Shown: one piece after another, positions 518-13,655 of the stretch
Layout: every line of letters starts with the position of its first letter
Position numbering within the stretch: the stretch's first letter is position 1
Assembly: GCA_027489455.1 (NCBI GenBank)
Contig: JAIXZR010000265.1
Location: 1 to 36,356 of the forward strand
Reading direction: 5' to 3'
Source: Rubrivivax sp.
GTDB taxonomy: Bacteria; Pseudomonadota; Gammaproteobacteria; Burkholderiales; Burkholderiaceae_C
DNA length: 36,356 nucleotides
The notes under the pieces: model-generated
What the model was told of the DNA's origin: nothing
Databases searched by the model: none
The model's input: the letters and a program-made list of their open reading frames with translations, nothing else
Position numbers and translations under genes: made by a program

Positions 518-1763
518 AGCGCAGGGCCTCGGCCGGGTTCGTGCGGCTGGCGCGCCAGCTGGGGTAGAGCGTGGCCAGCAGGCTGAGCACCAGTGAGATG
601 AGCGCGATCGGCACGATGTCGCTGGCCAGCGGTTCGCTGGGCATGCGGCTGATGACGTAGATGCTGCCGGGCAGGAAGGCCACGCCCAGCAGCCTTTCGA
701 TGGCCGGCACGATGACGTCCACGTTGAGGGCCACCAGCAGGCCCAACGCCACGCCGGTGAAGGTGCCGATGACGCCCGCCGTGGCCCCCTGCACGATGAA
801 GATGCCCATGATGGACCGCGGGCTGGCGCCCAGGGTGCGCAGGATGGCGATGTCGGCACGCTTGTCGGTCACCGTCATCACCAGCGTGCTCACCAGGTTG
901 AAGGCCGCCACGGCGACGATGAGCGTGAGGATGATGAACATCAGCCGCTTCTCGATCTGCACGGCGTCGAACCAGTTGCGGTTGGTGCGAGTCCAGTCGC
1001 GCACGTCCACGGCCATGCCCAGGCTCTGCTGCAGCTGGCTGCCCACCTGGCGCGCGGATTGCACGTCGGCCAGCCGCAGCTGCACGCCCGTGGGGCCTTC
1101 GAACTGGAAGAAGCGCGCCGCGTCGTCGATGTGGATCAGCGCCAGCGCGCTGTCGTACTCGTAGTGCCCGGCCTCGAAGACGCCGACCAGCGTGAACTGC
1201 TTGATGCGTGGCGTCACGCCCGCCGGCGTGACCTGCCCGCCAGGGGCGACGATGGCCACTTTGTCGCCGACGCGCGCGCCCAGCAGCCGGGCCAGCTCGA
1301 TGCCCAGAACGATGTTCCATTCGCCCGGCCGCAGCTGCGCCAGCAGCGGCTGCTGCGTGCGCGCGAGATCGGTGACGCTGGCTTCGGCCTGCGGATCGAT
1401 GCCGCGCACGACGGCGCCGCGCAGGTCGTCGCCGCGGCCCACCAGCGCCTGCGCGGCGATGAAGGGCGCGGCACCGCGCACGGCTGGGTTGGTGCGCGCG
1501 GCAGTGGCGGTAGCTTGCCAGTCGGGCAGGGCACCGCGCGCGGCGTCGAAGATCTCGACGTGCGCGATCACGCTCAGCATGCGGTCGCGCACCTCCTTCT
1601 GGAAGCCGTTCATCACGCTCAGCACGATGATCAGCGCGGCCACGCCCAGCGAGATGCCCAGCACCGAAACCAGGCTGATGAAGCTGATGAAGCCGTTGCG
1701 CCTGCCGGCGCGGCCCGCCCGTGTGTAGCGCCAGCCGATCTGCCACTCATAGGGCATGTTCAT
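510..1763 (-). CDS. LolC/LolE-family lipoprotein-releasing permease
   Basis: This is the membrane subunit that works with LolD to release lipoproteins. Its 417 residues show the family plan: an N-terminal transmembrane helix (about residues 24-50, with the [13 protein letters not shown] stretch), a large periplasmic domain of the MacB_PCD type (about 50-260), then three C-terminal helices of the FtsX domain. It ends in the characteristic [18 protein letters not shown]. Only one permease gene precedes lolD, where E. coli has lolC and lolE. It may therefore be the single hybrid permease (LolF-type), or a second copy may lie elsewhere. The start at 1763 faces the divergent rpfE-like gene. Confidence 0.92.
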
Positions 1764-1820
1764 AGGCGGCGGATGCTACCGGACGGGCCGTGCCCGCCCC
1801 GGCGCCCCGGCCATGGCCGG

Positions 1821-1826
1821 GATAAT
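1821..1826 (+). promoter_or_regulatory. Candidate -10 element of the rpfE-like/recJ unit
   Basis: GATAAT matches the sigma70 -10 consensus at 5 of 6 positions and ends 7 bases before the ATG at 1834. Transcription would then start at or next to the start codon, giving a leaderless message. No good -35 box is visible. The same arrangement occurs at several other genes in the window. Confidence 0.35.
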
Positions 1827-1833
1827 GCGGGCG

Positions 1834-2766
1834 ATGGCCTTGCTGATCCCCTTTGCCGCCCCGCGCGCTGCGCCCTGGGGCGAGTTGCAGAACCTGCAGC
1901 TGCCGCACCTGCAGACCGTGCTGGCGCAATGGCAGCCCGGCCCGCGCGACGAAGGCGATGAGCTGAGCCTTTCGCCCCCGCACGAGCGGGCGCTGGCCCG
2001 CGCTCTGGGCTGGCATGGCGCCGATGGCGGCCTGCCCTGGGCGGCCTGCGCGGCAGCGGCCGACGGCATCGACACCGGCGATCTGGCCTGGGGCCTGCTG
2101 ACGCCCGCGCACTGGCACCTGGGCACCGAGCAGGTGAGCCTGATCGACCCGGCCGGGCTGATGCTGGACGAGGCCACCTCGCGCGGTCTGTTCGCGGCCG
2201 TGCAGTCGCTGTTCACTTCCGCCGGCTGGGTGCTGGCCTGGGGTGCCCCGCTGCGCTGGTATGCCGCGCACGAAAGCCTGGCCGAGCTGCCCTGCGCCGC
2301 GCTGGACCGCGTGATCGGCCGCAATGTCGACCGTTGGCTGGGCCACGCGCCGGCCCTGCGCACGGTACGCCGGCTGCAGGCCGAGGTGCAGATGCTGCTG
2401 TACACGCACCCGCTGAACGATGAACGCCAGGCCCGCGGCCTGCTGCCGGTCAATTCCTTCTGGCTCAGCGGCTGCGGCCTGGCCCAGCCCGAGCGCAGCC
2501 CGGCCCCGCAGGTCGACGAGCGTCTGCGTGCACCGGCCCTGGCTGGCGACTGGCCTGCCTGGCTGCGCGCCTGGGAGACGCTGGACGAAGGCCCGATGCG
2601 CGACTTGCTGGCCCCCGGTGCACCCGGCCGCAGCCTCACGCTGTGCGGCGAGCGTGCGTCGATCACCTACACCCCCGCTGCCAATGGCCCGCCCAGCCTG
2701 CTGGCCCGCCTGCGCCAGCGTCTGCAGGCGCCGCCGCCTGTGCAGCGACTGCTGGAGACGCTGTGA
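1834..2766 (+). CDS. RpfE-like protein (COG4255-type), coupled to recJ
   Basis: This 310-residue protein, starting MALLIPFAAP, resembles the conserved proteobacterial family often mis-annotated as phosphoglycerate mutase. The family includes RpfE of Xanthomonas, also encoded next to recJ. Its molecular function is not established. Conserved-looking stretches include LQTVLAQWQPG, WHLGTEQVSLIDPAGL, LYTHPLNDERQARGLLPVNS and FWLSGCG. There is no signal peptide or membrane helix, so it is probably cytoplasmic. I chose the ATG at 1834 because a GATAAT box lies just upstream; an in-frame ATG at 1825 overlaps that box. The stop overlaps the GTG start of recJ by 4 bases (GTGA). Family assignment is from memory of the motifs and gene order. 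Confidence 0.8.
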   Translation: MALLIPFAAPRAAPWGELQNLQLPHLQTVLAQWQPGPRDEGDELSLSPPHERALARALGWHGADGGLPWAACAAAADGIDTGDLAWGLLTPAHWHLGTEQVSLIDPAGLMLDEATSRGLFAAVQSLFTSAGWVLAWGAPLRWYAAHESLAELPCAALDRVIGRNVDRWLGHAPALRTVRRLQAEVQMLLYTHPLNDERQARGLLPVNSFWLSGCGLAQPERSPAPQVDERLRAPALAGDWPAWLRAWETLDEGPMRDLLAPGAPGRSLTLCGERASITYTPAANGPPSLLARLRQRLQAPPPVQRLLETL

Positions 2767-4517
2767 TCCTGCACACCCGCGATGTGCCACCGCGCATCCG
2801 CCACGCGCTGGAACAGGCCGGCGTGCACCCGCTGCTGGCGCAACTGCTGGCCGCGCGCGGCGTGCGCACGGCCGAAGAGCTGGACGACGGCCTGCCCCGG
2901 CTGCTGCCGCCGGAGACCTTGCGTGGCGCTACCGAAGCCGGCCGCCTGCTGGCCGACGCCATCGCCGCCGGGCAGCGCATCTGCGTGGTGGCCGACTACG
3001 ACTGCGACGGCGCCACCGCCTGCGCCGTGGCCTTGCGCGGCCTGGCCTTGCTGGGCGCGGCGCCGCAGAACCTGGGCTACGTGGTGCCCGACCGTGCGGT
3101 GCACGGCTACGGGCTCACGCCGGCGATCGTGGACCTGGCCTGTGCCGGCGCCGCGCGGCCGCAGCTGCTGGTGACGGTGGACAACGGCATCGCCAGCCAT
3201 GCCGGCGTGGCGCATGCGCGCAGCCTGGGGCTGGCCGTGCTCGTCACCGATCACCATCTGCCCGCGGCCGGCCAGCCCTTGCCGGCGGCTGATGTGATCG
3301 TCAACCCCAACCAGCCCGATTGCGGCTTTGCCAGCAAGGCCATCGCCGGCGTGGGCGTGATGTTCTACGTGCTGCTGGCCACGCGTGCCGAGCTGCGTGC
3401 GCGCGGTGCCTACGACGCCCTGGCCCAGCCGCGCCTGGACGCGTTGCTGGACCTGGTGGCCCTGGGCACGGTGGCCGACGTGGTGAAGCTCGACGCCAAC
3501 AACCGCCGGCTGGTGGCCCAGGGGCTCAAGCGCATCCGCAGCGGGCGCATGCAACCCGGCGTGGCCGCGCTGTTCCGCGCCGCCGGGCGCGATCCGGTGC
3601 GGGCCGCCGGTTTCGACTTCGGCTTTGCACTGGGCCCGCGCATCAACGCCGCCGGCCGCCTGGCGGACATGACGCTGGGCATCGAATGCCTGCTCACCGA
3701 CGATCCGGCGCGGGCCGCCAGTCTGGCCGCGCAACTGGACGCCATCAACCGCGAACGCCGCGATGTCGAAGCCGGCATGCGCGAGCAGGCCGAGCAGCTG
3801 CTGGCGCGCTGGTGGTCGGGCGCCGACGCGGCAGCCGTGCCGCCGGCCGTGGTGCTGTTCGACGAAGGCTTCCACGAAGGCGTGGTGGGCATCGTCGCCG
3901 GCCGGGTGAAGGACCGCGCGCACCGGCCCACGTTCGTCTTCGCGCGTGGTGCCAACGGGCAGCTCAAGGGTTCCGGCCGGTCGATCCCGGGCTTCCACCT
4001 GCGCGACGCGCTGGACCTGGTGGCCAAGCGCCACCCCGGGCTGCTGCTGCGCTTCGGCGGCCATGCCATGGCCGCGGGCTGCACGCTGCAGGATGGCGGC
4101 GTGACGGTGTTCGAAGCCGCGCTGGCCCAGGTAGCCAGCGAATGGCTGGATGCCGCCACGCTGCAGCGAACCTTGCGCACCGACGGCCCGCTGCCGCTGC
4201 AATGGTTCAACGCCGAGACCGTGGCCCTGCTGGACGCGCAGGTCTGGGGCCAGGGCTTCGAGGCCCCGGTGTTCTGCGACGAAGTGCAAGTGCTGCAACA
4301 GCGGCTTGTCGGCGAAAAGCACCTGAAGCTGCGGCTGCGCCACGCCGGGCAGGAGCGCGATGCGATCTGGTTCAGCCATGACCAGCCTTTGCCCGAGCGC
4401 ACCCGGCTGGCCTACCGCCTGGGGCTGGACGAATGGAACGGCCGCCAGCGCGTGCAGATGCTGATCGAAGCCGCGCAGGAGCCGGCCGCCCCGGCCGGGG
4501 CGGGTGCCGCGGTCTAG
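2763..4517 (+). CDS. recJ: RecJ, single-stranded-DNA-specific 5'-3' exonuclease
   Basis: RecJ degrades single-stranded DNA from 5' ends in recombination (RecF pathway), mismatch repair and base-excision repair. The 584-residue protein has the DHH phosphoesterase core: ADYDCDGATA (D78, D80, D82), the TVDNG motif (D140), the eponymous DHH (163-165) and a downstream NPNQPD. The DHHA1 and OB-type regions follow (GPRINAAGR, then FRFGGHAMAAG-like residues near 430). The GTG start at 2763 overlaps the upstream stop by 4 bases and gives the standard N-terminus (residues 2-10 ILHTRDVPP). Length and metal-binding residues are normal, so it should be active. Confidence 0.96.
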   Translation: MILHTRDVPPRIRHALEQAGVHPLLAQLLAARGVRTAEELDDGLPRLLPPETLRGATEAGRLLADAIAAGQRICVVADYDCDGATACAVALRGLALLGAAPQNLGYVVPDRAVHGYGLTPAIVDLACAGAARPQLLVTVDNGIASHAGVAHARSLGLAVLVTDHHLPAAGQPLPAADVIVNPNQPDCGFASKAIAGVGVMFYVLLATRAELRARGAYDALAQPRLDALLDLVALGTVADVVKLDANNRRLVAQGLKRIRSGRMQPGVAALFRAAGRDPVRAAGFDFGFALGPRINAAGRLADMTLGIECLLTDDPARAASLAAQLDAINRERRDVEAGMREQAEQLLARWWSGADAAAVPPAVVLFDEGFHEGVVGIVAGRVKDRAHRPTFVFARGANGQLKGSGRSIPGFHLRDALDLVAKRHPGLLLRFGGHAMAAGCTLQDGGVTVFEAALAQVASEWLDAATLQRTLRTDGPLPLQWFNAETVALLDAQVWGQGFEAPVFCDEVQVLQQRLVGEKHLKLRLRHAGQERDAIWFSHDQPLPERTRLAYRLGLDEWNGRQRVQMLIEAAQEPAAPAGAGAAV

Positions 4518-4654: not shown

Positions 4655-5965
4655 GTGCAGCACCCCTTCCCTGACACCCCTGCCGCCCTGCGCCGGCCCG
4701 TGCGGCAACCGGCACACGCCTTGGCTCTGGCCGCAGTGGCCTGCGCCGCACTGCTGGCGGGCTGCGGTGGCGGCGAACCGGCCGCCCCGGAGGGGCGCGC
4801 CACCCCGCTGGCGGCCAGCCCGGCCGCGGCCGATGTTGGCGCGGCAGCCACGACGACCCGCAGCAGCCCGGCCGCCGATGCCGCTGCGCCGGCCCGCGCG
4901 CTGACCGTGACGACCGTGGCCAGCGGCCTGGTCAACCCCTGGAGCCTGGCCTTCCTGCCCGATGGCCGCATGCTGGTGACGGAAAAGCCCGGCCGGCTGC
5001 GCATCGTGCAGGCCGGCGGCACCCTGTCGGCACCCATCACCGGCGTACCCGCGGTACTCAATTCCGGCCAGGGCGGCTTGTTCGAGGTCGCCCTGGCGCG
5101 CAACTTCGCCACCAGCCGGCGCATCTTCCTGTCGTACGCCGAAGCCGGCACCGGCAGCGACGCCGGCCGCAACGGCCTGGCCGTGGGCACGGCCACACTC
5201 AGCGCCGACGACGCGGCGCTGCAGAACTGGCAGGTCATCTACCGCCAGAGCCCGAAGGTGGCCAGCACGCAGCACTTCGGCGGGCGGCTGGTGGTGAACC
5301 CCGACGGCACGATCTTCATCACCACGGGCGAGCGCTCGCTGGCCAGCGAGCGCGGGCGCGCGCAGTCCCTGGAGTTCGGCCACGGCAAGGTGTTCCGCCT
5401 GGCGCTGGACGGCTCGACGCCGCGCGACAGCCCCTACAACTACATGCGCAGCGCGCAGCGGGGCATCTATTCGTACGGTCACCGCAACCCGCAGGGCGCG
5501 GCCCTGCACCCGGTGACGGGCGAGCTCTGGATCACCGAGCACGGCCCGCAAGGCGGCGACGAGATCAACCGCATCGTGCCCGCGGCCAACTACGGCTGGC
5601 CGCTGGTGAGCCACGGCTGCGAGTACGGCGCGCCGGTGGGCAACTGCACGCCCGTGGGCGGGGCCTCCACCGGTACGGGCTTCACGCCGCCGGTCAGCAC
5701 CTGGGTGCCGACCTCGATGGCGCCCAGCGGCTTGGTCATCCACAGCGGTAACGGCGCGCCGGATTGGCGGGGCGATTTCTTCCTGGGTGCGCTGGCGGGG
5801 CGCGCCGTCTGGCAAGTCAAGATGAACGGCAACGCGGAGGTCTCGCGCAGCATCCTGCCCACCGGCCTGAACGAGCGCATCCGCGATGTGCGCGAAGGCC
5901 CTGACGGCGCGCTGTATCTGCTGACCGACAGCAGCGCGGGCCGCGTGATTCGCGTCGCACCGTGA
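4655..5965 (+). CDS. PQQ-type sugar dehydrogenase, lipoprotein paralog
   Basis: This is a glucose/sorbosone dehydrogenase-family six-bladed beta-propeller (soluble aldose dehydrogenase type), expected to oxidise aldoses with PQQ and calcium in the periplasm. The 436-residue protein begins at GTG 4655, 5 bases after the AGGAGA box at 4644-4649. Its signal sequence ends in the lipobox LLAGC (Cys37), so it is probably a lipoprotein. An Ala/Pro/Thr-rich spacer follows before the propeller begins near residue 85 (NPWSLAFLPDGRML). The likely catalytic His is H207 in TQHFGGR. GHRNPQGAALHP and TEHGPQGGDE follow, as in the family. It is a tandem paralog of the next gene. No pqq biosynthesis genes lie nearby, and the substrate is unknown. 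Confidence 0.88.
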   Translation: MQHPFPDTPAALRRPVRQPAHALALAAVACAALLAGCGGGEPAAPEGRATPLAASPAAADVGAAATTTRSSPAADAAAPARALTVTTVASGLVNPWSLAFLPDGRMLVTEKPGRLRIVQAGGTLSAPITGVPAVLNSGQGGLFEVALARNFATSRRIFLSYAEAGTGSDAGRNGLAVGTATLSADDAALQNWQVIYRQSPKVASTQHFGGRLVVNPDGTIFITTGERSLASERGRAQSLEFGHGKVFRLALDGSTPRDSPYNYMRSAQRGIYSYGHRNPQGAALHPVTGELWITEHGPQGGDEINRIVPAANYGWPLVSHGCEYGAPVGNCTPVGGASTGTGFTPPVSTWVPTSMAPSGLVIHSGNGAPDWRGDFFLGALAGRAVWQVKMNGNAEVSRSILPTGLNERIRDVREGPDGALYLLTDSSAGRVIRVAP

Positions 5966-5974
5966 CGCTGGCCG

Positions 5975-6002
5975 GCCGGCCTGCCGCCTGCGGTGGGCCG
6001 GC
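5975..6002. terminator. GC-rich hairpin between the two dehydrogenase genes
   Basis: The arms GCCGGCC (5975-5981) and GGCCGGC (5996-6002) pair, and the intervening bases contain a further CCGC/GCGG inner pairing. There is no T-tract, so this would be an imperfect or Rho-assisted terminator, or simply an mRNA structure. Confidence 0.35.
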
Positions 6003-6053
6003 GCGATAAGCCCGCGCGGCGTGCGGGCGCAGGCCTGATGCCAAGATCGCCGG

Positions 6054-7199
6054 ATGAAACAGACAGACAACAACATCGCGCCGCGACTGGCGACGCTGGC
6101 CCTGCTCGCAGCCACCGCCCTGGCCCCCGCTGCGGCCCAGGCGCAGCCCCTGAAACCCGTGCCGGTGCTGCGCGGGCTGGACAACCCCTGGGCCCTGGCC
6201 TTCCTGCCCGACGGCCGCATGCTCGTGACGGAAAAGCCCGGCCGGCTGCGCCTGGCCCTGCCCAGCGGCGAGCTGTCTGCGCCGCTGGCCGGGCTGCCGG
6301 CCATTTCTGCCGGTGGCCAGTGCGGGCTGCTGGACGTGGTGGCCGACCCGCAGTTCGCGCAGAACCGGCGGATCTTCTTCACCTTTGCCGAGCCCGCGGG
6401 CGAAGGCGCCAGCGGCAACAGCACGGCCGTGGCCAGCGCGCGGCTGGTGGGCGACGGCCTGGGTGCGAAGCTGGAAGACGTGCGCACCATCTTCAGCCAG
6501 AAGCCCAAGATCAGCAGCCGCCACCACTGTGGCAGCCGCATCGTCTTCGACCGCAGCGGCGCCTTGCTCGTGGGCCTGGGCGACCGCTTCAGCGGCAAGG
6601 ACGAATCGCAGAACCCGGCCAATCACATCGGCAAGGTCGTGCGCATCAGTGCCGAAGGCCAGCCCTTGCCCGACAACCCCTACGCCGGCAAGGCAGGCCA
6701 TGCGGCCGAGGTGTTCAGCCTGGGCCACCGCAACATCCAGGGCGCGGCGCTGCACCCGCAGACCGGCGAGCTCTGGGCCGTGGAGCACGGCCCGCAGGGC
6801 GGTGACGAGGTCAACCGTGTGCAGCCTGGCCGCAACTACGGCTGGCCCGTGGTCACCTACGGCCGCAACTACGGCCTGGGCACGCGCATCGGCGAAGAAG
6901 GCCCCAAGCCGGGCATCGAGCAGCCGTTGCGGCACTGGGTGCCCACCTCGGTGGCGCCGGCGGGGCTGGCCTTCCTCACCAGCAGCCGATACCCGGGCTG
7001 GCAGGGCAGCCTCTTCATGGGCACCCTGCGTGGGCAGGCGCTGGTGCGGCTGACGCTGGACGGCGCCAGCGTCACCGGCGAAGAGCGGCTGCTGGCCGAC
7101 CTGGGCGCGCGCATCCGCGACGTGCGCCAGGGCCCGGACGGCTGGCTCTACATCGTCACCGACGGCGACGCCGGCCAGGTGCTGCGGCTGGAGCGCTGA
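6054..7199 (+). CDS. PQQ-type sugar dehydrogenase, secreted soluble paralog
   Basis: This is the second glucose/sorbosone dehydrogenase-family propeller, 381 residues. It has a classical signal peptide ending at about AAAQAQ (residues 24-30) and no lipobox, so the mature protein should be free in the periplasm. The family motifs are NPWALAFLPDGRML, HHCGSR (probable catalytic H158), GLGDRF, LGHRNIQGAALHP and VEHGPQGGDE. It lies 88 bases downstream of its paralog, with a hairpin between them. The ATG at 6054 has no clear ribosome-binding site. A weak -10-like CAAGAT (6042-6047) sits 6 bases upstream, so this copy may have its own promoter. The HHC in place of QHF next to the active site may signal a different substrate preference. 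Confidence 0.88.
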   Translation: MKQTDNNIAPRLATLALLAATALAPAAAQAQPLKPVPVLRGLDNPWALAFLPDGRMLVTEKPGRLRLALPSGELSAPLAGLPAISAGGQCGLLDVVADPQFAQNRRIFFTFAEPAGEGASGNSTAVASARLVGDGLGAKLEDVRTIFSQKPKISSRHHCGSRIVFDRSGALLVGLGDRFSGKDESQNPANHIGKVVRISAEGQPLPDNPYAGKAGHAAEVFSLGHRNIQGAALHPQTGELWAVEHGPQGGDEVNRVQPGRNYGWPVVTYGRNYGLGTRIGEEGPKPGIEQPLRHWVPTSVAPAGLAFLTSSRYPGWQGSLFMGTLRGQALVRLTLDGASVTGEERLLADLGARIRDVRQGPDGWLYIVTDGDAGQVLRLER

Positions 7200-7229
7200 G
7201 CACGGCCAGCAGGCTGGCTGAAGCCCGCA

Positions 7230-7258
7230 TTGCCGCCGCCCCCGGGCGCGCCTACGAT
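7230..7258 (+). promoter_or_regulatory. Candidate sigma70 promoter for the CHAT-MBL gene
   Basis: TTGCCG (7230-7235) and TACGAT (7253-7258) are separated by exactly 17 bases. Each matches consensus at 4 of 6 positions. The predicted transcript start near 7265 leaves a leader of about 55 bases, containing the purine-rich ribosome-binding site GAGAGGGG at 7305-7312. Confidence 0.5.
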
Positions 7259-7320
7259 CCCCGGCCTGAACAACCCTGCCGGGCGAGATCGGCCCGGCTG
7301 GCCCGAGAGGGGGCCGCGCC

Positions 7321-10300
7321 ATGGCAGACAGCCTGAACATCCGCAGCGTGACGGTCGAGCTGCTGCGCTCCGGCCCTTCGCACAACCAGCTGCTGTCGCC
7401 ACTGACGCTGTACCTGGGGATCTGCGACGAAGCCGAGGCCGGCATCGTCACGCTGCCGTTCGAGCACGCGGCCTTCCTGCGCCGCATCGGCGTGATGCGC
7501 TACGAGGAGCACAAGGCCGCCGACAAGCTGCCCGAGCTGCGCGCCATGGGCGTGGAGATGGCCAAGGTGCTGGGTTCGATCCCTCGCCTGCCGGGCTCGA
7601 TCTCGGCCGAGACCACCGGCCGCGACACGCTGGTGCACCTGTGTCTGGTGCTGTCGGCCAGCGAGCTGGCGCTGCTGCCCTTCGAGCTGGCGAAGATGCC
7701 CATCGGCCCCACCAGCTGGACGGAGAGCTGGCTGGCGCTGCAGTCGCGCGTGCCGGTGGTGATCACGCGGCGCACGCGCAACGTCACGCCGCGCGACACG
7801 CCCTGGCTGAAGCAGCCGCGGGTGCTGTTCATCAGCGGCGAGGCCGACCCTGACGCCCCCAACAGCGTGCCCTTCAAGGAACACCGTCTCGCGCTCATCA
7901 ACGCCGTGCGGCCCTTCATGCTGCCATCGGACCGCCACGGCCAGCTCAGCCGGGGCGACCAGCGCGAGCAGTTCGGCGAACTGCTGACCATCCTGCGCAA
8001 GCCGCGCTTCGAGGACGTGGTGAGCGAGTGCGCCGCGCACCGCTACACCTGCATCCACGTGCTGGCCCACGGGCGCGAAGACCGCAGCATGGGCGACAAC
8101 AGCTACGGCCTGGAGCTGCACCCGCGCGACGGCGTGATCAGCGGCGACCGGCTGGCATCGGCCTTCACGGCGCTGCACAACGGCCGCATCCACCGGCCCG
8201 ACGTCGTCACCCTGGCCACCTGCGACAGCGGCAACAACGAAGCCGCGGTGCTGACGCCCGGCGCCAGCATCGCGCACGTGCTGCACCAGGCCGGGGTGCC
8301 GCTGGTGCTGGCATCGCAGTTCCCGCTGTCCAAGCTGGGCTCGGTGCTGGTGGCCAAGTTGTTCTACAGCGGGCTGATGTGGGGCGACAACCCCTGGGTG
8401 CTGCTGCACCGCGTGCGCACCAACCTGCACGGCACGATGGGCCCGGGCGACCACGACTGGGCCAGCCTGGTGGTCTACGAGGCGCTGCACCTGGACGCCT
8501 ACAAGCTGGACCAGACGCGCTACCACCAGTGCTATCAGGCCATGCTGGCGGCCTGGATGGACGACGACGGCGCCGAAGACGAGCTGGCCGACGTCGACGA
8601 TGAAAAGGCTGCCGATGGCGAGAGCCTGGTCGGCACCTGCAAGACCAGCCGGGTGCTGCCCCGCCTGCCGGTGGACAGCAAGTTCTTCGGCATGCGCGCG
8701 CTGGCGCTGCGCGCCGATGCCCACCTGCAGAACGCGATCGACCAGCTCGGGCAGATCAACCGCCCGCTGCGGCGCCAGAACGAGCAGGCCGAGTTCGAGG
8801 ACCGCGTGGCGCGCAGCTGCCGCGAGCTCGAGCACGCCATCGAAGACCACGAAGCGGCGCTGATGGGCTTCCTGGTGAAGGACGGCCAGGGCATGAACGC
8901 GCCTTACCGGTCGCTGGTCTCGTTGATCCGGCTGCGCACGGTGCTGGGCCGGTCGATGGACGAGGGCATCCTGGAAACCGCCGGCTACTGGCTCAACGCC
9001 GTGCTGGCCGAGCCGGCGGCGCGCGACGAACGCGTCTCGGCCTGGGCCTGCCTGGCCGAGCTCTGGCTGCTGCGCACCCTGCACCCGGAAGAAGGCGAAC
9101 GCCGCCGTGCCGCCGTCGAGGCCGTGCATGCCACCAGCGAAGTCATCAAGTTGGACCGTGAAGGCCATTCGATGGCCACGCGCTGGCTGCGCGTGCTGCT
9201 GGACACCTACGTGCGCTTCTGGGGCGAAAGGCGCTTCGAGCAGGCGCTGGCCAGCTTTGGCGAGAACAATCGCCCGAGCTTCCGGCAGGGCGAGGTCAAC
9301 CTCGTCGAAACGGCCCGCGGCCTGCGCGAGATGCTGGACCGGCAAGGCCTGCGCCAGACGGCCGTGCGCGCCAGCGCGCTGCTCGCGACCGAGCTCAAGG
9401 CCCTGGCGCGGCCGGGCGGCCGCACCCGGCTGAAGCCCCCGGCGCCCCCGCCGCTGCAGGCCTACGACACGCCGGGCGTGGCGGAGCAGGACGGCGCACC
9501 TGACGCCGAGACTGACGCCGAGCCTGACGCCGGGCCCGAAGCCAAGAAGGATGCCGACGGCGCCGGGGCGTCCTTGCAGGGACACCTGGGCGCGCAGGCC
9601 AGCCCGGCGGCCGCCGGCCAGGCCTACTTTCACATCGACATGCTGCCGGCGCGGCATGGCGACGCGCTGTGGATCGAGTACGGCCGCGGCAGGGCGGCAC
9701 CGGCCCGGGTGCTGGTGGATTGCGGGCCGGTGGGGGCGTACAAGGAATTCCTCAAGCCGCGCATCGCGGCACTGCCGCCGGCGCAGCGGCACTTTGAGCT
9801 GTTCATCCTCTCGCACATCGACGACGACCACATCGGCGGCGCCATCCAGTTGCTGAAAGACGCGCGCAGCCTGGGCGTGAGCTTCGGCGACATCTGGTTC
9901 AACGGCTTCAAGCACCTGCCTGGGGTACTGAACGCCAAGCAGGGCGAAGCCTTTTCGGCGCTGATCCAGCAGCAGGGGCTGCCCTGGAACCGCATGGTCC
10001 GCGACGTACATGCCGACGACAGCGACGCCGTCGTGCGCGAAGCCGACGAGGTGCCCGAGATCCGCCTGCCCGGCGGCCTGCGCCTGACCCTGCTGTCGCC
10101 CACCCCGGTGCAGCTGACGGCGCTGCGGCGCAGCTGGGTGAAGGAGATCGAGCGCGAGGGCCTGAAGCCTGGCGAACTGGCCACGGGCGAGCGCTTCTTG
10201 GCCGCCGTGCCGGTGCCGCCCACCATCGACACCGTGCCGGCCCTGGCGGCGGAGAAGTTCGATTCCGACACCACGGCCCCCAACGGCAGCAGCATCGCCG

Positions 10301-10749
10301 TGCTGGCCGAGTTCGACCGCAAGGCCGTGCTGCTGGGTGCCGACGCCTACGCCCCCGTGCTGGAGCAGGCGGTGGACCTGCTGCGCGCCCGGCGCAAGCT
10401 GAAGAAGGACCAGCCGCTGCCGATCTCGGCCTTCAAGCTGCCCCACCATGGCAGCCAGAACAACCTCAGCAGCACGCTGCTGAAGAAGCTGCGCTGCGCC
10501 GACTTTCTGGTGTCCACCAGCGGTGCGCGCTTCTATCACCCGGATTCACAGGCCATCTCGCGGGTGGTGATGCAGGCGCTGGCGGCCAAGGTGCCGGCCA
10601 AGCTTTGGTTCAACTACCGGGCCTCGGCCAAGCTCAATGGCGCCTGGGACGCGGCCGACCTGAAGCGCAAGTACCGCTACGAGGTGGCCTACCCTGCGGC
10701 GGGCCAGAGCGGCATCCGCTACACCGTGCCCGACGTCGGCCCCGCCTGA
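7321..10749 (+). CDS. CHAT cysteine protease fused to ComEC-like MBL hydrolase
   Basis: This large 1142-residue cytoplasmic protein has no signal peptide. Residues of about 60-400 form a CHAT (caspase-like) protease domain. The catalytic pair is H250 (IHVLAHGRE) and C301 (VTLATCDSGN), followed by the VLASQFPLS stretch typical of the family. Residues of about 450-700 are alpha-helical and charged, possibly TPR-like. An acidic repeat linker (about 715-755) leads into a metallo-beta-lactamase fold (about 770-1135) of the ComEC/Rec2 type: SHIDDDHIGG (H832, D834, D836, H837), LLGADA (D1008) and PHHGS (1041-1045). Both catalytic sets look intact. The gene stands alone on its strand and converges on the DUF2235 gene 17 bases away. 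Function is unknown. A proteolytically regulated nuclease or hydrolase in defence or regulated cell death is a reasonable inference, not shown. Confidence 0.85.
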   Translation: MADSLNIRSVTVELLRSGPSHNQLLSPLTLYLGICDEAEAGIVTLPFEHAAFLRRIGVMRYEEHKAADKLPELRAMGVEMAKVLGSIPRLPGSISAETTGRDTLVHLCLVLSASELALLPFELAKMPIGPTSWTESWLALQSRVPVVITRRTRNVTPRDTPWLKQPRVLFISGEADPDAPNSVPFKEHRLALINAVRPFMLPSDRHGQLSRGDQREQFGELLTILRKPRFEDVVSECAAHRYTCIHVLAHGREDRSMGDNSYGLELHPRDGVISGDRLASAFTALHNGRIHRPDVVTLATCDSGNNEAAVLTPGASIAHVLHQAGVPLVLASQFPLSKLGSVLVAKLFYSGLMWGDNPWVLLHRVRTNLHGTMGPGDHDWASLVVYEALHLDAYKLDQTRYHQCYQAMLAAWMDDDGAEDELADVDDEKAADGESLVGTCKTSRVLPRLPVDSKFFGMRALALRADAHLQNAIDQLGQINRPLRRQNEQAEFEDRVARSCRELEHAIEDHEAALMGFLVKDGQGMNAPYRSLVSLIRLRTVLGRSMDEGILETAGYWLNAVLAEPAARDERVSAWACLAELWLLRTLHPEEGERRRAAVEAVHATSEVIKLDREGHSMATRWLRVLLDTYVRFWGERRFEQALASFGENNRPSFRQGEVNLVETARGLREMLDRQGLRQTAVRASALLATELKALARPGGRTRLKPPAPPPLQAYDTPGVAEQDGAPDAETDAEPDAGPEAKKDADGAGASLQGHLGAQASPAAAGQAYFHIDMLPARHGDALWIEYGRGRAAPARVLVDCGPVGAYKEFLKPRIAALPPAQRHFELFILSHIDDDHIGGAIQLLKDARSLGVSFGDIWFNGFKHLPGVLNAKQGEAFSALIQQQGLPWNRMVRDVHADDSDAVVREADEVPEIRLPGGLRLTLLSPTPVQLTALRRSWVKEIEREGLKPGELATGERFLAAVPVPPTIDTVPALAAEKFDSDTTAPNGSSIAVLAEFDRKAVLLGADAYAPVLEQAVDLLRARRKLKKDQPLPISAFKLPHHGSQNNLSSTLLKKLRCADFLVSTSGARFYHPDSQAISRVVMQALAAKVPAKLWFNYRASAKLNGAWDAADLKRKYRYEVAYPAAGQSGIRYTVPDVGPA
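9499..9534 (+). repeat. Three tandem 12-base repeats in the CHAT-MBL linker
   Basis: Three head-to-tail copies, CCTGACGCCGAG, ACTGACGCCGAG and CCTGACGCCGGG, encode PDAE, TDAE and PDAG. They lie in the acidic linker between the helical region and the MBL domain. Such in-frame repeats can change linker length between strains. Confidence 0.8.
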
Positions 10750-10766
10750 GCGCGGCGCCCGCCGGC

Positions 10767-11882
10767 TCAGGGCGTGTCGACCACCGGCAGGGCAGCGATG
10801 GCATCGGCCGGCTGCGGCGGCCTGTAGGGCGGGTAGCTGGCCTGCGGCGGCTGCGGCGGCGGGAAGGTCGCAGGCGGGTTGCCGTTGGCCAGCCGCTGCA
10901 GCACCGACCGGTGCACCGTCTCCTGGAAGGCCGGGCCGTTGCCGACCGGGCGCGTGACCCGCTTCCCCAACTGCATGAGCTTGTAGATCGTGCCGAAGGA
11001 ATCGTTCAGCGTCGAATCGAAACGCGGCAGGAAGAAGCGCAGGTAGTCGGCGTCCAGGCTCAGCCCGGCCTGGCGGGCGTGGCCAGCCATCCAGTGCAGC
11101 GCGACGTTGGCCAGGCCGTCCGGGTCGTAGCTGCCGCCAACGTTGGAATGCACGCCGGCAAACCAGGTCTGCGCCAGCGTGCCCTTCCAGCCCGGCGGCT
11201 GCTTGAACAGCGTGGCCCGGAAGGCCTTGCGGCGTTCGTCCAGCGCCAGCGCGTGCGCGGCGTAGCGGACGTTGTCGTTCAGCTGCACGTCGTGGAACTG
11301 GTAGCGGCCGCTGTTGAAGATCTGCCCGATCAGGCCGGGCGCGCCCAGGGCGCCCACGGTGTCCCAGACGCCCAGGAAGGTGATGGGCGGGCAGTCGCGC
11401 GCCTTCTGGATGCGCTGGCTGCCGTTCTTGCGCGTGAACACGGCGCGGTAGGCCTCGCTGTCCGGCAGCACGTTCTGCTCGTAGCAGCGGAACATCTCGG
11501 GGACATAGAAGTCGTCGCCCTTGCGCACCAGGCCGTAGCGGTTCATGAAGCCGACCAGGCTGCGCACGGTGAAGGCGCCGCGGCTGAAGCCGAAGAGATA
11601 GAGCTCGTCGCCCGGCGAATGGTTGTAGAGGATGAAGCGGTACATCGCGCGGATGTTCGATTCCATCCCGTGGCCGAAGGCGCCGCCCGTCAGCTCGTCC
11701 AGCGGCCCGCCGGTGCCCACGCCCGGGTGGTAGTAGACGACCTGGTCGATGCCATCGTCGCCCCGGGTCTTCACCGCCCGCGCCATCTTGGTGACGTTGG
11801 TGGGGCGCCGCTTGCCGCTGTCGTCGTCGATCTGGTCTTGCTTGTTCCAGGTGCCGTCGGCACAAATCACGATGCGTTTCAT
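10767..11882 (-). CDS. DUF2235 alpha/beta hydrolase, Tle1-like lipase
   Basis: This 371-residue protein belongs to the DUF2235 family, which contains the type VI secretion phospholipase effectors of the Tle1 group. It opens MKRIVICADGTWN, the family hallmark. The nucleophile is S100 in GFSRGAF. The other triad members are probably D174 (GVWDTVGA) and H245 (GVHSNVGG). The C-terminus (about 335-371) is a proline-rich tail. There is no signal peptide, so export would need a dedicated system, or it acts inside the cell. The ATG at 11882 has an AGGA site just upstream and suits the family N-terminus; longer upstream frames do not. It converges with the CHAT-MBL gene and diverges from the GH19 gene. 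No vgrG, PAAR or hcp gene is in the window. Confidence 0.87.
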   Translation of the reverse strand: MKRIVICADGTWNKQDQIDDDSGKRRPTNVTKMARAVKTRGDDGIDQVVYYHPGVGTGGPLDELTGGAFGHGMESNIRAMYRFILYNHSPGDELYLFGFSRGAFTVRSLVGFMNRYGLVRKGDDFYVPEMFRCYEQNVLPDSEAYRAVFTRKNGSQRIQKARDCPPITFLGVWDTVGALGAPGLIGQIFNSGRYQFHDVQLNDNVRYAAHALALDERRKAFRATLFKQPPGWKGTLAQTWFAGVHSNVGGSYDPDGLANVALHWMAGHARQAGLSLDADYLRFFLPRFDSTLNDSFGTIYKLMQLGKRVTRPVGNGPAFQETVHRSVLQRLANGNPPATFPPPQPPQASYPPYRPPQPADAIAALPVVDTP

Positions 11883-12072
11883 CGCGGGTCCTCGGTGTTG
11901 TTGTTGAGTCAGCGCGCGGACTGTGCATGGCGGCTGCTCCGGGTGCAACGACATTTTCACGACGGCCCGTGCGACATTAGGTGCTGACGCCGCACGCGGG
12001 CGTGGCTCAACATGCGGCGTGCCGCGGCGCCATTCGTTCATTCCAACCTGCCGCCGGCCCCAGGAGCACACC
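11883..12072. promoter_or_regulatory. Divergent intergenic region with CGACATT direct repeat
   Basis: These 190 bases separate the DUF2235 and GH19 genes and must hold both promoters. The base composition is lower in GC than the flanks. CGACATT occurs twice on the plus strand (11949-11955 and 11972-11978), with starts 23 bases apart, about two helical turns. I could not pick a convincing -35/-10 pair on either strand. Confidence 0.4.
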
Positions 12073-12858
12073 ATGCCCATCACCGCATCCGTCGGCTTGA
12101 ACGGCCGCAACGACCTGGCCGACGTCGCCGTCGTGCAGATCCTGCTCAACGTCAACCGCGCCCGCCTGCCCGGCAACCCACCGCCGCTGGACGCCGACGG
12201 CCGCATCGGCCGCATGACGCTGGACGCGATCGCGGCCTTCGAGACCGGCGTGATGGGCCTGTCCGAGTCCGACCGCATCGTGGCCCCGGGCGACGCCACC
12301 ATCCGCGCCTTGCTGCAGGGCCTGCCGCCGGGGGCGACGAAGGAGAAACTGGCCGTGGTGCTGCCGCGCGCAACGAAGAGCCGCATCGACCTGTACTTCG
12401 AGCCGCTGAAGGCGACGATGGTCAAGTACGGCATCACCACGCCACTGCAGATGGCGCACTTCATCGCCCAGGTGGGGCATGAATCGGGCTCGCTGCTGTA
12501 CAACGAGGAGATCGCCAGCGGCGCCGCCTACGAAAACCGGGGCGACCTGGGCAACACCCAGCCCGGCGACGGCGTGCGTTTCAAGGGGCGCGGGCTGATC
12601 CAGCTCACCGGGCGCAACAACTACATCGGCTTCAGCAAGTACACCGGTGTGGACTACGTCAGCAACCCCAAGCCGGTGGGAGAGGACCCGATGATCTCTG
12701 CCGAGGCCGCGGGCTGGTTCTGGGTCGACCGCAAGCTGCCGGCGCTGGCGGAGCGCGACGACGTACGAGCCGTGACCAAGCGCATCAACGGCGGCTTCAA
12801 CGGGCTGGACGACCGCATGCAGAACCTCTTCCGCGCCAAGGCGGTGATGGGGCTTTGA
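12073..12858 (+). CDS. GH19-type peptidoglycan hydrolase with PG-binding domain
   Basis: This 261-residue endolysin/chitinase-like enzyme is expected to cleave peptidoglycan glycan strands. The N-terminal ~65 residues resemble a PG_binding_1 domain (VVQILLNVN, then DADGRIGRMTLDAIAAFE). The GH19 catalytic domain follows, with likely acids E137 (GHESGS) and E145/E146 (LLYNEE), then FKGRGLIQLTGRNNY and INGG. AGGAG at 12062-12066 supports the ATG at 12073. There is no signal peptide, so it is either delivered by a secretion machine or released by lysis. Its stop overlaps the TTG start of a lipoprotein gene, which looks like a cognate immunity gene. GH19 plus PG-binding domains also occur in the Xanthomonas type IV effector XAC2609; no XVIPCD-like export tail is visible here. 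A phage endolysin remnant is the main alternative. Confidence 0.87.
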   Translation: MPITASVGLNGRNDLADVAVVQILLNVNRARLPGNPPPLDADGRIGRMTLDAIAAFETGVMGLSESDRIVAPGDATIRALLQGLPPGATKEKLAVVLPRATKSRIDLYFEPLKATMVKYGITTPLQMAHFIAQVGHESGSLLYNEEIASGAAYENRGDLGNTQPGDGVRFKGRGLIQLTGRNNYIGFSKYTGVDYVSNPKPVGEDPMISAEAAGWFWVDRKLPALAERDDVRAVTKRINGGFNGLDDRMQNLFRAKAVMGL

Positions 12859-13655
12859 AGGCCGGCCTGCCAGTGCTGCCGCCGTGTGGGCCGGGGCCGG
12901 CAGGCCCAGCGCGCGCAGCCCGGTACAGCGGCGTGATCGTGCTCGGCGCGGCGGCCGTGCTGGCCGCTTGCCGGCAGGCGCCGGGGCCGGCTGCGGGGCC
13001 CGTGGCGGCTGTGGCGGTGGCGCCTGCGTCAGCGCCCGCCTCGACCTCAGGCCCCGAGGGGGCCGATCCCGCCAGCTACGAGATCGTCCAGGTGCTGCCC
13101 CCCAGCCCGGCAGCCAGCGCGCCACTGCGCCTTCGGGTGTTGGCGGCCGAATCGCCGCAGGCCACGGGCCTGCTGCGCATCCAGGCCATCGAGGTGCAGC
13201 GCGAAGCTCAGGTGCTGCAGCGCATCGAGGGGCTGGACACGCAGACGCCGCTGGCCGAAGGTGCGGCGCCGGTGGAGGCCGTGGACATGAACTTCGATGG
13301 CCATGTTGACCTGCGGCTGGTCGAATCACGCCCGGCCGGGCCGAACACGCCTTACCTGAACTGGTTGTGGAACCCGGCGGCGCAGCGTTTCGAGGCCAGC
13401 CCTGCGCTGGACGAGATCAGCGCGCCGCGCTTCGACGCCAGCCGCAGGCAAGTGCAGTCCGACTGGCGCGACGGCGCCAGCCGCTACGGCACCGACACCT
13501 ATGTCTGGCGTGACGGCCCGGCGGCCGCGCAGCTGTTGCCGCTGCAGCGCGAAGAGCGCGCCTACAGCGCGCCTGGCCGCTACGTGCTCAAGACCTACCG
13601 CTGGTCGGGGGCCAGCTGGCAGCTGCAGAGCAGCCGGCCGGGGCGCGACGGCTGA
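12855..13655 (+). CDS. XAC2610-like lipoprotein, putative immunity to the GH19 enzyme
   Basis: This 266-residue predicted lipoprotein has a hydrophobic stretch VIVLGAAAV running into the lipobox LAAC (Cys39). An Ala/Pro-rich spacer follows, then a beta-rich domain. The calcium-loop motif DMNFDGHVDLRL at 144-155 (D144, N146, D148, D152) is the signature of XAC2610-related proteins. XAC2610 is the periplasmic lipoprotein immunity factor that inhibits the GH19 peptidoglycan hydrolase XAC2609 in Xanthomonas citri. The TTG start at 12855 overlaps the GH19 stop (TTGA), so the two are translationally coupled. The start is uncertain because the signal region is long; a GTG at 12873 is possible. Family membership rests on one motif, the lipobox and context. 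Confidence 0.72.
   Translation: MKAGLPVLPPCGPGPAGPARAARYSGVIVLGAAAVLAACRQAPGPAAGPVAAVAVAPASAPASTSGPEGADPASYEIVQVLPPSPAASAPLRLRVLAAESPQATGLLRIQAIEVQREAQVLQRIEGLDTQTPLAEGAAPVEAVDMNFDGHVDLRLVESRPAGPNTPYLNWLWNPAAQRFEASPALDEISAPRFDASRRQVQSDWRDGASRYGTDTYVWRDGPAAAQLLPLQREERAYSAPGRYVLKTYRWSGASWQLQSSRPGRDG

Follow-up and report, generated by a model that had tools for sequence, protein, structure and literature searches.

A CHAT protease and an MBL-fold hydrolase in one chain: a candidate protease-armed pro-nuclease from Rubrivivax sp.

We analyzed a stretch of 36,356 nucleotides from Rubrivivax sp. (assembly GCA_027489455.1, contig JAIXZR010000265.1), hereafter the window, and focused on one of its genes, which encodes a CHAT domain, a helical array and a C-terminal MBL hydrolase domain in a single chain. 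The gene is real and well conserved, and its product is probably a one-chain protease-armed pro-nuclease. More specifically, the protein may be a self-arming cell-suicide enzyme, whose CHAT half cuts gate loops and thereby frees an MBL DNase; we hold this reading tentatively, at slightly less than an even chance. Across genomes the CHAT core exchanges its partners, which is a larger surprise than the fusion itself.

Architecture and conservation of the chain

The gene and its parts are the following (positions in the window, strand, description).

7321..10749, +, single-chain CHAT-helical-MBL gene (P0001), 1142 amino acids
7321..8496, +, CHAT region, residues 1-392
8068..8070, +, catalytic His250
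8221..8223, +, catalytic Cys301
8497..9366, +, all-helical middle, residues 393-682, TPR-like at best
9367..9612, +, disordered linker, residues 683-764, poorly conserved
9613..10740, +, MBL hydrolase domain, residues 765-1140
9814..9831, +, HxDxDH metal motif, residues 832-837
10342..10344, +, metal ligand Asp1008
10444..10449, +, His1042-His1043 of the PHHGS motif

An earlier note, made from the letters alone, had described one polypeptide with a CHAT domain and intact His250/Cys301 dyad, a helical middle and a C-terminal MBL fold with HxDxDH, Asp1008 and PHHGS motifs, and this description is borne out. Both folds match solved structures (Csx29, separase, ComEC). Matches of the CHAT half are to the proteases Csx29, separase and SAVED-CHAT, and those listed for residues 1-400 include Csx29, SAVED-CHAT, separase, gingipain and DdvA. 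It scores 64.5 bits against the Pfam CHAT family PF12770 (cut-off 24). His250 and Cys301 are each conserved in a fraction of 1.00 of 120 aligned homologues, and all 57 loci that were aligned (57 of 57), MBL-fused or not, retain the dyad. Judged by profile and dyad, the CHAT half is a putative protease of the CHAT kind. The HxDxDH motif, Asp1008 and His1042-His1043 of the MBL half are conserved in the same 120 homologues. In the structure model residues 393-682 are all-helical, and the linker falls below 50 in predicted local distance difference test (pLDDT); alignment columns for linker residues 701-760 have an occupancy of 0.26-0.42.

The same layout, which the earlier note had suggested looking for, recurs in other genomes. 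A scan of 84,980 species genomes with the family alignment gave 60 loci (L numbers below), of which 11 (L012-L021 and L025) encode a single-chain CHAT-MBL protein besides that of the window. The single-chain loci belong to Pseudomonadota, Acidobacteriota and Planctomycetota. Both search peptides are from the CHAT half, so that the sample is biased towards CHAT. One longer protein, P0088 (1456 amino acids), carries CHAT, MBL, PG_binding_1 and CHAP domains in one chain, with MBL and PG_binding_1 below the Pfam cut-offs.

The MBL half, its insertions and a possible mechanism

By sequence, the MBL half groups with the defense nucleases LmuA and Avs1a. Its PADLOC matches are LmuA (1.7e-60), Avs1a (4.6e-37) and RTasMBL (1.3e-36), and its nearest relatives by sequence and fold are nucleases (LmuA, Avs1a, ComEC). 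This kinship argues against a phosphodiesterase acting on a small signal, for instance as the off-switch of a nucleotide messenger, with CHAT as the effector, and we consider such an arrangement very improbable. The window's own genome encodes a second, separate MBL relative (L090, 8870-9943; C248); no protease was recognized by eye in the nearest called genes.

Compared with ComEC from the same genome, the MBL half has two insertions, which may be gates over the active site.

9907..10056, +, insertion 1, candidate gate, within residues 863-912
10102..10269, +, insertion 2, candidate gate, within residues 928-983

H832 and P927 lie 95 residues apart, against 59 in ComEC, and P927 and D1008 lie 81 apart, against 32, with the ComEC values counted by hand on one frame; the ComEC domain is hence shorter by about 36 and about 49 residues at the two points. 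The core of insertion 2 (residues 941-963) has a pLDDT below 50 in the model, yet includes positions conserved among the 120 homologues (P950 84%, G951 95%, L960 98%).

Such insertions are known from published systems. According to the main text of PMC12799240 (Tuck et al.), HamM, Avs1a and CanC are pro-nucleases that carry two insertions each; a trypsin-like or caspase partner activates them and cuts, or is predicted to cut, the gating insertions. HamM is cleaved after I118 and I218, and CanC has conserved glycines in both insertions. The MBL half being of this defense pro-nuclease kind, with two gating-type insertions, the protease-gated effector suggested by the earlier note fits. The principle of a protease arming a nuclease, a caspase partner (Canu) included, has however already been published there with separate genes.

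In the mechanism we propose, a cysteine protease of the CHAT kind, extended by a TPR-like helical array, would be tethered flexibly to an MBL-fold DNase, whose active site the two inserted loops would cover. The CHAT half would be switched on, probably by ligand binding and oligomerization through the helical part, and would then cut the loops, in cis or on a neighboring chain. The freed DNase would destroy DNA, and the infected cell would stop. We infer the coverage of the active site by the loops, the proteolysis, the DNase activity, the trigger, the oligomerization and the role against phage. If true, this would be the shortest form of a protease-arms-nuclease circuit, one chain uniting regulatory array, caspase-like protease and DNase, with a parallel in broad outline in the caspase-activated DNase of animals, and it would extend the principle from trypsin and paracaspase to proteases of the separase/Csx29 kind.

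Alternatively, the CHAT half might leave the gate loops intact and cut the disordered tether at residues 683-764, thereby setting the MBL enzyme free. No other disordered stretch is as long as this tether, which joins both halves, and an MBL released from it would resemble the MBL proteins listed alone. The length and sequence of the tether are, however, hardly conserved, unlike the motif of insertion 2, and in the systems of PMC12799240, as its main text has it, the gates themselves are cut. We find cleavage of the tether rather improbable.

Genomic setting and points against the mechanism

The neighborhoods of the fused genes give modest indications of defense. We considered 10 non-syntenic fused loci including the window, with no control set, and ran PADLOC on 98 of the 104 predicted neighbors. 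Defense-like genes lie near three of them (L020, L015 and L021, the third by inference). TIR-domain genes and a second LmuA-like MBL occur at L020. At L015, a type I methyltransferase gene (1.7e-96) stands beside a nucleotidyltransferase-like pair recognized by eye. L021 has a pair of AbiL-like ATPase and RloB-like genes (1304-3357, - strand) about 6.6 kb from the fused gene, to which the AbiLi (1.8e-92) and AbiLii (2.1e-21) matches were assigned by eye. The PADLOC tally names families and not loci, and DrmD (3.6e-33), WYL (2.3e-67), HEC-01A, QatD and other matches are not traced to a locus. The enrichment near defense genes, proposed as a check in the earlier note, is modest, at three of ten loci, and without a control.

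Several findings weigh against the proposed mechanism. No recognized defense gene was seen at the other seven fused loci, window included (some PADLOC matches being untraced), and no full-length copy was found in the phages, viral contigs and plasmids searched. The MBL half does not reach the cut-off of the NCBIfam Avs1a equivalog NF041809 (185.9 against 420 bits). In insertion 1, the commonest residue at position 901 is glycine (82%), and the window protein has a serine there. MBL proteins listed without CHAT share both insertion distances, the medians of the two sets being identical at 89 and 79 (from 111 of 120 and 113 of 120 proteins), so that the insertions mark the whole nuclease group and not the CHAT fusion. 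Lastly, a tree of the MBL domains (53 rows, bootstrap not settled) scatters the fused MBLs among those listed alone.

The surroundings of the gene in the window bear on the main rival of this mechanism.

4736-13655, variable cargo site, flanked by recJ on one side and the vWA-DUF58-MoxR genes on the other
4736-7199, tandem pair of glucose/sorbosone dehydrogenase (GSDH) genes just upstream of the CHAT-MBL gene
10767..11882, -, DUF2235/Tle1-like hydrolase gene, convergent neighbor and possible partner (longer frame 10767-12503: Pfam PF09994, 4.7e-80)
12073..12858, +, gene for a GH19-like cell-wall hydrolase in that variable site, by association only (longer frame 11923-12858: Pfam, 2e-9)

Of 60 genomes from the window's genus, some of them incomplete, 4 encode the full protein. 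In 25 of the 60, recJ and DUF58 share a contig, at 1.05 to 28.7 kb from each other (partial matches included); in the three carriers among these the distance is 8.5 to 10.2 kb. The few carriers and the variable size of the site indicate that the gene is accessory cargo. Relatives have other contents at this site: a phage-lysozyme gene is shown for L114 and L118, the former also with a cyclase-AAA protein, L112 and L113 have a stretch with transposase-like genes (by eye), and L128 has nothing between GSDH and vWA. A homologue of the DUF2235/Tle1-like gene, at least 58% identical, occurs in the same four carriers, always adjacent to CHAT-MBL and convergent with it, including G002, where both genes lie on a contig without recJ and without DUF58. 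A fifth genome of the genus has a DUF2235 match at 38%.

These neighbors would suit an accessory function in the envelope or in inter-bacterial competition, exerted with the Tle1-like (DUF2235) and cell-wall hydrolases, instead of phage defense. Apart from the four genus carriers, one of them at another place, DUF2235 also stands beside CHAT-MBL, again convergently, in L013. GH19 or PG_binding_1 neighbors occur in the window, L014, L013 and L017; these cell-wall genes, like the P0088 chain and the phage-lysozyme genes of relatives, feed this rival. On the other hand, DUF2235 is absent among the called genes of the other seven fused loci (some with short flanks), cell-wall domains are common and were counted without a base rate, and no VipA of the type VI secretion system was found in two of the four carriers, one being the window's own incomplete genome. 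We therefore regard an envelope or competition role as unlikely, though it is the main alternative to a self-arming suicide enzyme.

Two other readings were considered. A type VI secretion effector cluster is less likely: among incomplete assemblies, no VipA was found in the window's genome or G623, and VipA is present in G018 and G002. An origin from a mobile virus is without support in the records searched: the scan of viral contigs gave 13 stretches with a match to a search peptide, both peptides being in the CHAT half, and none is a relative. One phage record has a partial MBL match, and 71 plasmid records match in part, without any single place that covers 80% of the query.

Partners of the CHAT core and comparison with known systems

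Most loci of the scan carry the CHAT-helical protein with another partner. CHAT without a fused MBL was found in 48 of the 60 loci (L023 among them ends at a contig edge), while L022 has a CHAT gene and a separate, frameshifted MBL on the facing strand. In 42 of the 48, the next same-strand gene upstream encodes a calcineurin-like phosphoesterase about 500 residues long (one was tested with Pfam: Metallophos, 2.5e-9), with the motifs GNHD and GHTH in 40 of 42 each. The spacing to the CHAT gene is -4 to +53 nucleotides in 41 of the 42, the strand-corrected gap of L066 being 30. A subtilase gene lies upstream in three of the 48 (L048, L051 and L060, with Pfam support for L048), and in the remaining three the gene caller missed the CHAT gene. 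The gene maps leave out L023, L031 and L034, where the CHAT gene was missed, and L116, L117, L120, L123, L129, L131 and L132, where antisense frames were called in stretches rich in G and C.

The phosphoesterase-CHAT loci include L024, L026-L030, L032, L033 and L035-L047, with 266-326 residues between GNHD and GHTH where both were found; this large insert could be a gate. In L048, L051 and L060, and also in L044 and L052, a subtilase gene stands upstream of CHAT, either in place of the phosphoesterase or before it. L066 (9998-14884) has an MBL gene facing the phosphoesterase-CHAT pair, that is, both kinds of payload beside one CHAT. The recurrent CHAT-phosphoesterase gene pairs make a list of directly testable two-gene systems. 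Going further, the CHAT-helical protein might be central to a protease platform, widespread but so far unreported, whose payload varies (phosphoesterase in 42 loci, subtilase in 3, its own C-terminal MBL), the window protein being a self-contained zymogen cascade and the phosphoesterase a second class of protease-armed pro-enzyme; this larger proposal is doubtful.

That CHAT-helical proteins without MBL have other partner genes means that CHAT need not be dedicated to the MBL. The window protein could accordingly combine two parallel effectors, with CHAT degrading host proteins, the MBL half acting on nucleic acid or nucleotides, neither arming the other, and the fusion merely keeping both together. 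The kinship of the MBL half to protease-armed pro-nucleases and its gate insertions, read against the main text of PMC12799240, argue otherwise, and we give this possibility little credence.

The history of the fusion reads differently on the two trees. On the CHAT tree (midpoint-drawn root), the 12 fused rows group with L022 in a single clade (100/100), placed among phosphoesterase-linked lineages, which suggests one exchange of payload, with L022 as a later split or relic. The MBL tree has 10 label changes, at least 7 of them forced by well-supported branches, and some listed-alone MBLs are very near neighbors of fused ones (P0168 of P0077, P0189 of P0114) and may have arisen by gene fission or be fragments left by broken gene calls. 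The conflict could come from fission on several occasions, from exchange of the MBL part or from broken gene calls. Given the scatter on the MBL tree, the single clade of the CHAT tree is no proof of one fusion event.

MBL relatives also occur in other arrangements. In L091 (3203-7768, - strand) and L100 (8546-13241, + strand), an MBL gene lies directly upstream of a CHAT-AAA-subtilase protein, a layout that resembles Avs1 but with other proteases. This second way of combining CHAT with MBL speaks for the proposed mechanism. In L095, L099, L101 and L102, the MBL gene follows a protein of 850-1030 amino acids without Pfam domains, with a patatin gene in front (Pfam in L095, by eye in L101 and L102). 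In L103 the MBL relative adjoins a trypsin/CTD4 gene and an SMC-like gene.

No description of the CHAT-MBL chain or of the CHAT-phosphoesterase pairs was found in the literature searched (without preprints, with few subscription papers and, for PMC12799240, the main text). The published systems encode the nuclease in a gene of its own, and that main text does not use the word CHAT. The principle being published, what the window protein adds to it is the one-chain layout and the CHAT protease.

Among CHAT proteins, Csx29 (TPR-CHAT, Craspase) has its TPR part before CHAT (chain residues 15-235 and 397-715), whereas the helical part of the window protein follows it. Csx29 works with Cas7-11, according to PDB titles, and has no MBL; no Cas domain, and so no Cas7-11 locus, was seen among the window frames scanned with Pfam (39 of 130). 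For SAVED-CHAT (PDB 8tl0), the PADLOC match covers the CHAT part only (241-382), and the Pfam scan found no SAVED domain. The MBL nucleases of HamM, Avs1a, Lamassu and DRT systems form the family group of the window's MBL half and share its dual insertions. In the main text of PMC12799240 they differ in being separate, typically upstream genes, the trypsin-like protease being fused to a defense-associated enzyme. No SMC gene, as expected for the LmuB of Lamassu, was found among the same scanned frames, the best signal being SMC_N at 12.7 bits (cut-off 40) in an ABC-transporter frame (2-859, - strand). Canu (KaeCanABC), as described in that main text, also links a caspase-like cysteine protease to a gated MBL nuclease, and the insertion glycines of CanC recall those commonest at positions 901 and 951 of the window family, with the exception of 901 in the window protein itself. 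Its layout of a caspase gene with a separate downstream MBL nuclease gene is not that of the window: Canu has three genes, among them those for a MALT1-like caspase with an Ig-like fold and for CanB; the window protein unites CHAT, helical array and MBL in one chain.

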